A stretch of DNA of 64,000 nt from Candidatus Nitrosopelagicus brevis (lineage in GTDB: Archaea > Thermoproteota > Nitrososphaeria > Nitrososphaerales > Nitrosopumilaceae): contig NZ_CP007026.1 of NCBI RefSeq assembly GCF_000812185.1, forward strand, positions 390,426-454,425. Direction: 5' to 3'. The position numbers and the translations under genes were made by a program. Within the stretch, counting starts at the first letter, position 1; the number at the start of each line of letters is the position of its first letter. Shown here in pieces: positions 8,631 to 11,740 of the stretch. The notes below the pieces were generated by a model. That model ran no database searches, was not told the DNA's origin, and worked only from the letters and a program-made list of their open reading frames with translations.

Positions 8631-9434
8631 ATGGCTACAGCAAAAAAGACTACAAGAAAGTCTACAACAAAAAAAGATCTAGAAGCCAAAATTGCTGATT
8701 TAGAAGCAAAATTGAATAAATTAGCAGCTGCACAAGATGCAAAACCAGCAGAAACTGCACCAAAACCAGCAGAAACTGCACCGGAACCAAAACCAGCAGA
8801 AACTGCACCGGAACCAAAACCAGCAGAAACTGCACCGGAACCAAAACCAGCAGAAACTGCACCGGAACCAAAACCAGCAGAAACTGCACCGGAACCAAAA
8901 CCAGCAGAAACTGCACCAAAACCAGCTGAGAAAGCACCACCAGCATCAGGAGAACTTCACGAAAGATTCCGTGAAATTCCAACCGGAAACTGGAACACAC
9001 AAAAAGTTGCAATCACTGGTTTCACTGCACCTGGTAACAGATACTTTGGTAGTAGAGCTCTTGTAGCACAAACTAGTGTTACACCATCCAACTGGAATGA
9101 TCAAAAAACAAAAGTTACTGGTTATACAGCACCAAGTAACAAGTACTTTGCAACAAAACAAAGACTTGCATATCATCCAGAAGCCAAAAAATTTGGTACT
9201 TGGATTAATGACGCTCCTGCACCAAAAGCAGAAAAACCGGCAGAAGCTAAAAAAGCAGAATCTAAACCAGAAGCTGGCGGTGGTCCACACGGACATGATG
9301 AAAAACCAAAGACAGAGGCTAAAACCACTTCCGCAGATACAGCAAAAGATGAGTATGCTGCAAGAATGGCAAAAAAAGGAGCCACTTTACCAAAAGGATT
9401 CATCAAAGATGCTAAAGCAAACACAGGACACTAA
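8631..9434 (+). CDS. Modular NTGH-tail protein, large paralogue 1
   Basis: A 267-aa protein of no family I can name. In order: a basic K/T-rich N-terminus (1-16); a short coiled coil (DLEAKIADLEAKLNKLAA, 16-33); a Pro/Ala linker of repeated KPAETAP/EPKPAETAP units (38-103); two related 28-aa repeats built on NWNxQK, TGxTAP and NxYF (about 119-176); a second linker; the box GGGPHGHDEKP; and a tail DEYAARMAKKGATLPKGF ending DAKANTGH. There is no signal peptide or membrane segment, so it is probably cytoplasmic. The basic start plus Pro/Ala/Lys linker resembles H1-like nucleoid proteins, but that is only analogy. It shares a 267-bp block at roughly 97% identity with the gene at 10862. Confidence 0.8.
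   Translation: MATAKKTTRKSTTKKDLEAKIADLEAKLNKLAAAQDAKPAETAPKPAETAPEPKPAETAPEPKPAETAPEPKPAETAPEPKPAETAPEPKPAETAPKPAEKAPPASGELHERFREIPTGNWNTQKVAITGFTAPGNRYFGSRALVAQTSVTPSNWNDQKTKVTGYTAPSNKYFATKQRLAYHPEAKKFGTWINDAPAPKAEKPAEAKKAESKPEAGGGPHGHDEKPKTEAKTTSADTAKDEYAARMAKKGATLPKGFIKDAKANTGH
8742..8939 (+). repeat. Tandem minisatellite coding for (EP)KPAETAP units
   Basis: The linker of the gene at 8631 is coded by tandem copies of a unit such as ccggaaccaaaaccagcaga (27 bp, nine residues EPKPAETAP). Five 27-bp units are nearly identical, flanked by 21-bp versions lacking EP. Homogeneous copies suggest recent slippage or unequal exchange, so the copy number may vary between strains. Confidence 0.85.
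8955..9221 (+). repeat. 267-bp near-identical block, copy A
   Basis: Pairs with 11186-11452. Aligned by eye the two copies have the same length and about eight differences, roughly 97% identity, while the flanking parts of both genes are unrelated or rearranged. It codes for the NWNxQK double-repeat domain. This suggests recent gene conversion or partial duplication. Confidence 0.85.
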
Positions 9435-9443
9435 TCATTAGTG
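9365..9443 (+). repeat. 79-bp exact direct repeat, copy 1
   Basis: Identical by eye to 10028-10106. It covers the last 70 coding bases (tail MAKKGATLPKGF to NTGH and stop) plus the palindrome after the stop codon. Identity extends beyond the coding part, so it reflects DNA-level copying rather than protein constraint. Confidence 0.85.
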
Positions 9444-9478
9444 TAATTCTAGAACATTCTTTTTTCTTTTATCTTTTT
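9428..9478 (+). terminator. Palindrome plus T-tract after paralogue 1
   Basis: ACACTAATCATTAGTGT (9428-9444) is a perfect palindrome around a single C. It can fold as a 7-bp stem with loop TCA and includes the stop codon. A T-rich tract (ttttttcttttatcttttt) follows. This resembles an intrinsic terminator. The same 15-bp core follows two further family genes. Confidence 0.6.
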
Positions 9479-9586
9479 AAAAATATCTTGAATTTATTTT
9501 CATCATCAAAATATTTTTTCTCATCTTTTGAAATTAAATTTTAGAATTAACATCTGAATTAAATACAATCTTTTCAGATCTTCGTC

Positions 9587-9817
9587 ATGGCTGGTCCACA
9601 TGAACATGACGACAAACCAAAAGCTACAAAAAAAGCAAAACCAAAGAAAGCGGCACCAAAAAGAGATGAAAACTTTTGGAGAACCGATGAGGCAAAAGAC
9701 GAATATGTAGCAGAATACAACACTATGGCTAAAGATGGCAAAAGAGGAGCTTCACTATTAGGTCCTCTTCCTGCAAAATTTGTACCAGATGCTAAAGCAG
9801 GAAACACAGGTCACTAA
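9587..9817 (+). CDS. Small NTGH-tail protein (76 aa)
   Basis: A 76-aa protein with the family ends only. It starts MAGPHEHDDKPKATKKAK, so the GPHxHDxKP box is N-terminal. A lysine-rich stretch follows, then DEAKDEYVAEYNTMAKDGKRG, and it ends KFVPDAKAGNTGH. There is no cysteine, signal peptide or membrane segment. A TATA-like box AATTAAATAC (9557-9566) is centred about 26 nt upstream. The HxHD box might bind a metal, which is inference. Function unknown. Confidence 0.78.
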   Translation: MAGPHEHDDKPKATKKAKPKKAAPKRDENFWRTDEAKDEYVAEYNTMAKDGKRGASLLGPLPAKFVPDAKAGNTGH

Positions 9818-9858
9818 TCATTAGTGTAAAACAATTTCTTTTTTCTTTTATTTTCTTT
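9812..9858 (+). terminator. Palindrome plus T-tract after the 76-aa gene
   Basis: CACTAATCATTAGTG at 9812-9826, including the stop codon, followed by ttcttttttcttttattttc. Same core as the elements at 9428 and 10092; the coding sequence before it is diverged, so the element itself is conserved. Confidence 0.6.
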
Positions 9859-9938
9859 AATTTTTTCCTAAATTCATATCATATTTTGAAAAAATTTCAT
9901 ATCATTACATAAATAAACAACTAACGTCATTGCGAATC

Positions 9939-10097
9939 ATGGGTGGACCACACGCACACGATGAAAAACCTAAGAAAGAGGCTAAAGTTGACGACGCTGA
10001 CAAAGAAAAAGAAGAATATTCAGCAAAAATGGCAAAAAAAGGAGCCACTTTACCAAAAGGATTCATCAAAGATGCTAAAGCAAACACAGGACACTAA
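9939..10097 (+). CDS. Small NTGH-tail protein (52 aa)
   Basis: A short gene that a 60-codon cut-off would miss. It encodes 52 aa: MGGPHAHDEKPKKEAK, an acidic/lysine middle (VDDADKEKEEYSAK), then MAKKGATLPKGFIKDAKANT and GH. It is the minimal form of the family, the GGPHxHDEKP box joined directly to the tail. The TATA-like ATAAATAAAC (9909-9918) is centred 26 nt before the ATG. Its last 79 bp, including the trailing palindrome, are identical to the end of the gene at 8631. Homology, promoter and terminator together make this a real gene. Confidence 0.82.
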   Translation: MGGPHAHDEKPKKEAKVDDADKEKEEYSAKMAKKGATLPKGFIKDAKANTGH

Positions 10098-10106
10098 TCA
10101 TTAGTG
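10028..10106 (+). repeat. 79-bp exact direct repeat, copy 2
   Basis: Second copy of the block at 9365-9443, covering the tail, the stop codon and the palindrome of the 52-aa gene. Confidence 0.85.
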
Positions 10107-10132
10107 CAAAATTTCCTTTTTTCTTTATTTTT
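10092..10132 (+). terminator. Palindrome plus T-tract after the 52-aa gene
   Basis: CACTAATCATTAGTG at 10092-10106, overlapping the stop codon, followed by ttccttttttctttattttt. Third copy of the family terminator-like element. Confidence 0.6.
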
Positions 10133-10156
10133 AGATCGGTTAGATTATAGTATGAA

Positions 10157-10164
10157 TTAAATAT
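10157..10164 (+). promoter_or_regulatory. TATA box of the flavodoxin gene
   Basis: TTAAATAT centred 26 nt upstream of the ATG at 10186, so flavodoxin has its own promoter rather than depending on the family gene before it. Confidence 0.5.
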
Positions 10165-10185
10165 GAATACCATGAGTTTTTTTTA

Positions 10186-10740
10186 ATGACAATCGGACTT
10201 TATTTTGGTACTCAAACTGGTAAAACAGAAACCGTTTGTGGTATTATCAAAGAACAACTAGGCGATGCAGTAGCAAATGCAAAAGATGTTACCGAAAGTG
10301 ACTTGGCAGATTTTGCCGGTCTTGATGGTCTCATTTGTGGCATTCCTACATGGAATACTGGTGCTGAAGAACTTAGATCTGGAACAGCTTGGGATGACCT
10401 TTTAGAAAAAATTGGTGCATTAGATCTCAAAGGAAAACCAGTCGCAGTATTTGGCTTGGGTGACTCTGTTGGTTATGGACAAGATTATGTCGATGCAATG
10501 GAAGAACTACACAGATATTTCGAAAAAGCAGGCGCAAAAATGGTCGGATACGTAAGTCTTGACGGCTATGAGAACTTTACTAGTTCAAGATGTTTGATTC
10601 CACATCTCAATGAGATTACACCACCAGAAGATGGTGAAAAATTCTGTGGACTTCCTGTCGATGAAGATAGTGAAAACGATAGAACACAAGAACGAGTAGA
10701 AAACTGGTGTGCCCAGCTTAAAAAAGAAATGGGAATATAG
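10186..10740 (+). CDS. Long-chain flavodoxin
   Basis: A 184-aa FMN electron carrier. The phosphate-binding loop GTQTGKTE is at residues 8-15, the first isoalloxazine-stacking loop is PTWNTGAEELRSGTAWDD, and the FGLGDSVGYGQDY loop follows. The extra segment around KMVGYVSLDGYENFTSSR marks the long-chain class common in bacteria and cyanobacteria. It could substitute for ferredoxin under iron shortage. It lies between NTGH-tail genes but has its own promoter. The resemblance to bacterial long-chain flavodoxins suggests transfer, to be tested by phylogeny. Confidence 0.93.
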   Translation: MTIGLYFGTQTGKTETVCGIIKEQLGDAVANAKDVTESDLADFAGLDGLICGIPTWNTGAEELRSGTAWDDLLEKIGALDLKGKPVAVFGLGDSVGYGQDYVDAMEELHRYFEKAGAKMVGYVSLDGYENFTSSRCLIPHLNEITPPEDGEKFCGLPVDEDSENDRTQERVENWCAQLKKEMGI

Positions 10741-10861
10741 AAAAATCTACATCCTCATTACAACTCCTTTTTTCAAATTTTTACAAATTTTTGTTTATTT
10801 TTTTGGAAAAATTTTATGTCACTACAAAATGCACATAAGCAACTAATTCCCTATTCCACCA

Positions 10862-11740
10862 ATGGCGACATCTAAAAAGCGTACAACTACACGTAAAACT
10901 ACACGTAAAACTACAACAAAACGCAAATCCACATCTTCAAGAACGACAAAAGCTGATTTGGAAGCAAAAATTGCTCAATTAGAAAAGCGGTTATCAAATC
11001 TTGCTGAAGCTCCTAAACCAGCTCCAAAAGAAGCTCCTAAACCAGCTCCAAAAGAAGCTCCTAAACCAGCTCCAAAACCAGCAGAAGCTAAAAAACCAGA
11101 AGGCGGTGGCGGTCCACATGCACATGATGAAAAACCTGCAGATAAGGCACCACCAAAGCCTGTAGAGAAAGCACCTTCTGTTCCACTTCACGAAAGATTC
11201 CGTGAAATTCCAACCGGAAACTGGAACACACAAAAAGTTGCAATCACTGGTTTCACTGCACCAGGTAACAGATACTTTGGTAGTAGAGCTCTTGTAGCAC
11301 AAACTAGTGTTACACCATCCAACTGGAATGATCAAAAAACAAAAGTTACTGGTTACACAGCACCAGGAAACAAGTACTTTGCAACAAGACAAAGACTTGC
11401 ATATCATCCAGAAGCCAAAAAATTCGGTACTTGGATTAATGATGCTCCTGCAGGTGAACAAGCAAAATCTGCTCCACCTCCACCACCTCCACCTCCACAA
11501 CCTGAACCTCAGGCAAGTGCTGGAAGTGCATCTGATGGAAAATCAAAGCAAGCACAACTTGAAGACTATGAGAAAGAATACTTGGCACGTCTAGAACAGA
11601 AAAAAGTCGATGATGCAAAAGCAGTAGCTGAAGCCGCAAAAGCTGAAGCCGCAGCCGCAGCCGCTAAAGTACAATCTAATCGAGGCTCATTACCAAAAGG
11701 TTTTGGACCTGAAGGTGCTAAAGCAAACACTGGACACTAA
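10862..11740 (+). CDS. Modular NTGH-tail protein, large paralogue 2
   Basis: A 292-aa paralogue of the protein at 8631 with modules in a different order. A strongly basic T/K/R tail (RTTTRKTTRKTTTKRK) is followed by a coiled coil (DLEAKIAQLEKRLSNLAE) and a KPAPKEA linker. Then come the GGGGPHAHDEKP box, the NWNxQK double-repeat domain, a poly-Pro linker, a long Ala/Glu/Lys helix and a tail SLPKGFGPEGAKANTGH. In paralogue 1 the HxHD box follows the double-repeat domain; here it precedes it. No export signal is present. The basic tail suggests nucleic-acid binding, which is inference. The downstream region lacks the family palindrome. Confidence 0.8.
   Translation: MATSKKRTTTRKTTRKTTTKRKSTSSRTTKADLEAKIAQLEKRLSNLAEAPKPAPKEAPKPAPKEAPKPAPKPAEAKKPEGGGGPHAHDEKPADKAPPKPVEKAPSVPLHERFREIPTGNWNTQKVAITGFTAPGNRYFGSRALVAQTSVTPSNWNDQKTKVTGYTAPGNKYFATRQRLAYHPEAKKFGTWINDAPAGEQAKSAPPPPPPPPQPEPQASAGSASDGKSKQAQLEDYEKEYLARLEQKKVDDAKAVAEAAKAEAAAAAAKVQSNRGSLPKGFGPEGAKANTGH
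11186..11452 (+). repeat. 267-bp near-identical block, copy B
   Basis: Partner of 8955-9221, coding for the NWNxQK double-repeat domain of the second large paralogue. Confidence 0.85.

Follow-up and report, generated by a model that had tools for sequence, protein, structure and literature searches.

In the pyrenoid, a single Rubisco-binding motif is common to EPYC1 and other pyrenoid proteins, including the C-terminus of a membrane protein (PMC10614612, PMC10680556). In the membrane protein BST4/RBMP1 this motif serves for targeting and not for tethering (PMC10680556), and short motifs that bind Rubisco are found in CsoS2, a disordered linker of repetitive sequence (PMC10614612). Here we describe two archaeal proteins, A and D, encoded together with two small relatives, B and C, in a stretch of 64,000 nucleotides of the Candidatus Nitrosopelagicus brevis genome (contig NZ_CP007026.1, positions 390,426 to 454,425; hereafter the window). 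They resemble EPYC1 and the pyrenoid motif proteins such as BST4/RBMP1 as putative scaffolds, predicted to be disordered, with a repeated short motif, here TLPKG[FYW], that is also found on other soluble proteins and on the tail of a membrane protein. The same motif opens AmoX, which is encoded within the ammonia monooxygenase (AMO) gene cluster. We tentatively propose, with a probability of somewhat under 40%, that A and D are a multivalent cytosolic scaffold whose motif is read by a common partner and which gathers AMO and other clients. The archaeal proteins have no homology to the EPYC1 system; they share with CsoS2 the character of a disordered repetitive linker, but neither homology, nor a shell, nor an encapsulated enzyme.

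Proteins A (267 amino acids (aa); 8631-9434) and D (292 aa; 10862-11740) are, like B and C, encoded on the forward strand. Protein A consists of a coiled coil, a KPAETAPEP linker, a double repeat of the form WNxQK..TGxTAPxNxYF (8952-9203), a GPHGHDEKP box (GPHxHD found by pattern search at 9282-9299) and the tail TLPKGFIKDAKANTGH, which includes an LPKGF motif (9387-9401) and ends in NTGH before the stop codon (9420-9434). In D, a basic start and a coiled coil (residues 30-49; 10949-11008) lead through a linker to the box (11111-11128), the double repeat (11186-11434), a Pro linker, a helix with the DYEKEYLARLEQ module (residues 229-272; 11546-11677) and the tail LPKGFGPEGAKANTGH, again with LPKGF (11690-11704) and NTGH-stop (11726-11740). 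The coordinates bear out the observation of the initial annotation that the box lies 3' of the double repeat in A and 5' of it in D. The DNA encoding the linker of A consists of 6.1 copies of a 27-bp tandem repeat (8759-8924); the copies match at 98% and have therefore recently expanded.

Relatives of A were found in 164 of 200 Nitrosopumilaceae genomes, covering all 22 genera. The 72 named loci with such relatives are all thaumarchaeal, and close named relatives of the A/D pair belong to Nitrosopelagicus sp. Outside this genus there are usually two neighbouring genes in synteny with the window, in the shared order UbiD-like protein, 125-aa protein, A, D, peroxiredoxin and MIP channel (neighbours named from reading their sequences). 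These orthologues retain the coiled coil, the KPAE-type linker and the double repeat, lack NTGH and the box with the sole exception of locus L136, and end in (K/R)G(T/S)LPKGF or MPKGWKP-type variants. The C-terminus could be read in 78 members: [LM]P[KA]G[FW] falls within the final 24 residues of 70 of them and no more than four residues from the end in 52. Most members also have internal copies, and a single A/D-family protein may carry up to six, which points to multivalency. The double repeat was not found beyond Nitrosopumilaceae in the genomes tested. Within one genome, the two paralogues often have double repeats whose DNA is 100% identical (median 0.976), whereas A compared with A between genomes has a median identity of 0.60; the pair therefore evolves in concert. 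This pattern (window 8952-9203/11186-11434; loci L081, L082, L086, L115, L205, L028, L031 and L034) is a sign of gene conversion. The A-like proteins of genera g6 and g9 (L264, L265 and L266) contain just one repeat, with LPAGM/LPAGF in place of LPKGF, and in one of them the whole unit is duplicated. No viral relatives were found in viral contigs or phages, nor was there any PHROG match, and a viral origin of A-D was rejected.

The motif was counted in the window's own genome, which is complete (1.232 Mb, 33.9% GC), with degenerate DNA patterns for the codons of [LM]PKG[FW]. These patterns cover F and W but not Y, so LPKGY was noticed only where other searches revealed it. Of 12 sites, nine are in frame and fall within six proteins: A, C, D, an 839-aa coiled-coil protein (four sites), AmoX and a protein with one transmembrane (TM) helix. 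The other three comprise two FPKGL sites and one outside any frame of at least 45 codons. By composition, 0.46 sites would be expected per proteome and 0.03 near the termini. The papers searched held no account of the motif in ammonia-oxidising archaea (AOA), and the matches listed by the term searches included no AOA paper.

A 120-aa membrane protein starting MTLPKGF (L207:1995-2354) is encoded between amoC and amoA, with amoB adjoining; the neighbours were recognised by profile matches (AmoA, 8e-117; AmoC, 5e-14; Monooxygenase_B, 3e-7). Since amoX occupies this position of the amo cluster in Nitrosopumilaceae (PMC10030591), we identify the protein as AmoX. Its N-terminus has six residues, TLPKGF, in common with the A/D family, a link that the initial annotation did not note; otherwise AmoX is unrelated to A-D. 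Its start is M[TA]LPKGF in 34/34 Nitrosopumilaceae genomes and MTLPKG[YWF] in all 11 readable genomes of a second family, f3, and a Gly/Ser-rich linker follows the motif in the sequences read. The motif is absent from AmoX in one f5 genome and in one readable f2 genome, the alignments of the remaining f2 genomes beginning at residue 17-18, past the motif position. We infer that f3 is Nitrososphaeraceae-type and f2 Nitrosocaldaceae-type. AmoX and A encode the motif with different codons, and this speaks against a recent DNA copy. Membrane topology was assigned by the positive-inside rule, which predicts that the N-terminus of AmoX (KG, MIGRRVEN) and the tail of the one-TM protein are cytosolic.

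At the level of sequence, the motif is thus common to the A/D family, AmoX, the one-TM protein and coiled-coil proteins. In the window's own genome the one-TM protein (~450 aa) has an apparent signal peptide, an ectodomain, one TM helix and a tail that ends in the motif. The protein is present in 92 of 100 class genomes, but its tails vary (L296-L324 as against L295, L208 and L185), being of the MPKGW type in some genera, Cys-rich and metallothionein-like in many and of a third type in two. In other Nitrosopumilaceae, coiled-coil proteins of ~500 aa bear RG[ST]MPKGW; those at L189, L201, L049, L058 and L038 have a doubled GDxGRLxxILxxLKxNxxLYxSDxxYLExKL domain without a Pfam family. Two further proteins of the f3 genus g24 begin MTLPKG[FY], and in large f3 genomes (L281, L286, L284 and L289) a soluble protein of ~87 aa and a coiled-coil repeat protein begin MTLPKGF or MTLPKGY.

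The small proteins B (76 aa; 9587-9817) and C (52 aa; 9939-10097) have the box at their N-termini (9593-9610 and 9945-9962) and end in NTGH-stop (9803-9817 and 10083-10097); these elements, like the box and NTGH-stop of D, were located by pattern search. The tail of B is LPAKFVPDAKAGNTGH and that of C contains LPKGF (10050-10064) and NTGH; the tail core is LPAKF in B and LPKGF in A, C and D. A flavodoxin gene (10186-10740) between C and D lies outside the A-D family. All four open reading frames were confirmed, and so was the observation that a C-terminal tail and a GPHxHD(E/D)KP box are common to them. In the complete genome NTGH-stop occurs at five sites, namely A, B, C, D and the 839-aa protein (C1:531833-534352; L007:2334-4853), and GPHxHD at seven, all within the same five proteins, with none for the reversed-pattern control in either case; the sharing of NTGH-stop and the box exceeds chance. 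In the 839-aa protein the tail core is continuous with the box (LPKGFGQKSTSGGPHAHDEKP; LPKGFGQEPPSTGPHAHDEKP), and the two may therefore be halves of a single longer motif. Its N-terminus has a weak match to DUF3892 (PF13031; E 3.2e-4, 21.6 bits against a cut-off of 22.3), a profile that matches none of A-D. A 377-aa protein (L008:2890-4023, reverse strand) has internal KKGATLPKGYVQKTSSGGPHAEEEKP and LPKGYVQKTSSGGPHAEEEKP and has lost the second His of HxHD. The metal binding by HxHD that the initial annotation thought possible would be restricted to Nitrosopelagicus: the box is confined to Nitrosopelagicus-type members, and the ligands are not conserved family-wide. The initial annotation had also proposed, as a test, to see whether the tail recurs at the C-termini of other modular AOA proteins. 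This holds for its core, LPKGF, across the family; NTGH itself is limited to the genus and its close kin. It is [ST][LM]PKG[FW] that is deeply conserved; NTGH and the box elaborate on it within the genus Nitrosopelagicus.

The initial description of A-D as modular proteins without signal peptides or a named family stands, as searches against Pfam, NCBIfam and PHROG gave nothing above cut-off and the PDB no convincing match; the same three family databases gave no homology to EPYC1 or CsoS2 above cut-off. All four proteins were classed as disordered by charge and hydropathy. Thus A and D combine predicted disorder with a repeated short motif, as do linker scaffolds of the EPYC1/CsoS2 type. AlphaFold2, working from shallow alignments, did not confidently predict the double repeat (predicted local distance difference test 55.9, predicted template modelling score 0.30), and no known fold was assigned to it; full-length D was confident only at its two helices, residues 30-49 and 229-272. 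That the double repeats are strongly conserved and yet have no confidently predicted fold suggests that they too may be motifs which bind a partner and fold in doing so. The second half of the double repeat (RLAYxPxxKxFxS[FY]) holds a short stretch like CFA/I fimbrial subunit B (CfaB); the PDB profile matches to this subunit depend on one segment of ~20 residues (82-101), no segment is significant alone, and they were regarded as chance. Weak matches of the double-repeat profile to a glutamine synthetase segment (NSYKRLVPGYEAP; E 0.004-0.09) were treated likewise.

Taking these observations together, A and D may represent, in Nitrosopelagicus, a pair of soluble and mostly disordered scaffold proteins with several motifs that occurs across Nitrosopumilaceae. 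Oligomers would form through the N-terminal coiled coil, and the Pro/Ala/Lys linkers would set the distance between short conserved motifs. These are the two WNxQK..GYTxPxNxYF repeats, in D also the YExxYLxRLE helix, and at least one copy, in some members several, of [ST][LM]PKG[FW]; one copy usually lies close to the C-terminus or forms it. In the cytosol, LPKG[FYW] would act as a short linear motif bound by one shared partner. AmoX would display it on a flexible N-terminal arm and the one-TM protein on its tail, and the shared reader could join AMO, the one-TM protein, the coiled-coil proteins and A/D on the inner side of the membrane. Nitrosopelagicus appears to have extended the motif to LPKGFIKDAKANTGH, added the GPHxHDEKP box and placed both on B and C as well, which could cap or adapt the network. 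By analogy, the pyrenoid, where a scaffold, soluble proteins and a membrane tail have one motif in common, serves as a precedent and lends support to the scaffold reading. Unlike Rubisco, which binds the motif, the enzyme subunit AmoX bears it itself, and the hub would therefore have to be something else. The fuller proposal, that this AOA scaffold links to AmoX through TLPKG[FYW] and gathers AMO and membrane proteins as a sub-membrane patch or condensate, is slightly more doubtful.

Several findings weigh against a scaffold of this kind. The motif is just five to six residues long, and the one-TM protein bears it in some genera only. In some genomes of the same genus that have AmoX (G036), no match to A was obtained, and in g6 and g9 the A-like proteins carry LPAGF/LPAGW while AmoX retains LPKGF. 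In f3 the AmoX motif is kept and the double repeat was not found, so A/D cannot be the only partner of AmoX, and the f3 reader must be a protein other than the A/D repeats; in Nitrosopumilaceae these repeats might themselves read the motif. In addition, the low-confidence structure predictions rest on shallow alignments. A short motif that occurs at either terminus of unrelated proteins or inside them, mostly next to flexible sequence, would also fit the site of a shared modifying, processing or degrading enzyme, for example a degradation or maturation signal, with no scaffold involved. We consider this unlikely, as it accounts neither for the multiple copies per protein nor for the coiled coil and the conservation of the double repeat in A/D. 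The brevity of the motif could also mean that its identity in AmoX and A/D is a coincidence between proteins of unrelated function, and matches in Mre11, an epimerase and CheB (as in a secreted 847-aa protein) were indeed put down to chance. Such a coincidence is nevertheless improbable given that six proteins, whose architectures are of several unrelated kinds, hold nine in-frame sites, far above the composition-based expectation, and given the recurrence of the motif at the N-termini of further f3 proteins. Genomes of other families (G218 and G204) have no terminal sites, although one f2 genome (G211) has a site close to an N-terminus (RPRLPKGF).

The initial annotation took the system to be cytoplasmic or nucleoid-associated and noted an H1-like start in A and D; were A/D nucleoid-associated, H1-like proteins, the motif would be an unrelated packing element. 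The Lys/Thr-rich basic start of Nitrosopelagicus D, the Lys/Pro/Ala-rich linkers and isoelectric points of 9.4 and 10.0 for A and D recall histone H1-like proteins. However, only Nitrosopelagicus-type members have the long basic start, and other orthologues begin like MAAKRKASTKKDLE; there is no conserved basic region and no profile match, the net charge per residue of A/D is low by charge and hydropathy, and the motif on AmoX and on a membrane protein would be left without explanation. This reading is thereby weakened and now appears very unlikely. Phasins typically join a coiled coil to Pro/Ala/Lys linkers, an architecture that A/D resemble, and as a phasin-like coat they might tie storage granules to other parts of the cell. 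Polyphosphate- and polyhydroxyalkanoate-like granules have been reported in N. maritimus (PMC11082331). Yet A/D match no phasin family, polymer genes are not syntenic in the loci read and the AmoX motif would again be unaccounted for, so that we regard such a coat as the least plausible of these explanations.

In conclusion, the motif shared with AmoX suggests an unrecognised internal scaffold for AMO. Much of the nitrification in the ocean is carried out by AOA. The strictly conserved start of AmoX, common to dedicated disordered proteins, suggests a role as a docking arm, which is testable: the motif supplies both a synthetic bait peptide and a list of candidate partners. If the scaffold proposed here is real, Nitrosopumilaceae and Nitrososphaeraceae-type lineages would be predicted to have the system and Nitrosocaldaceae-type lineages to lack it.

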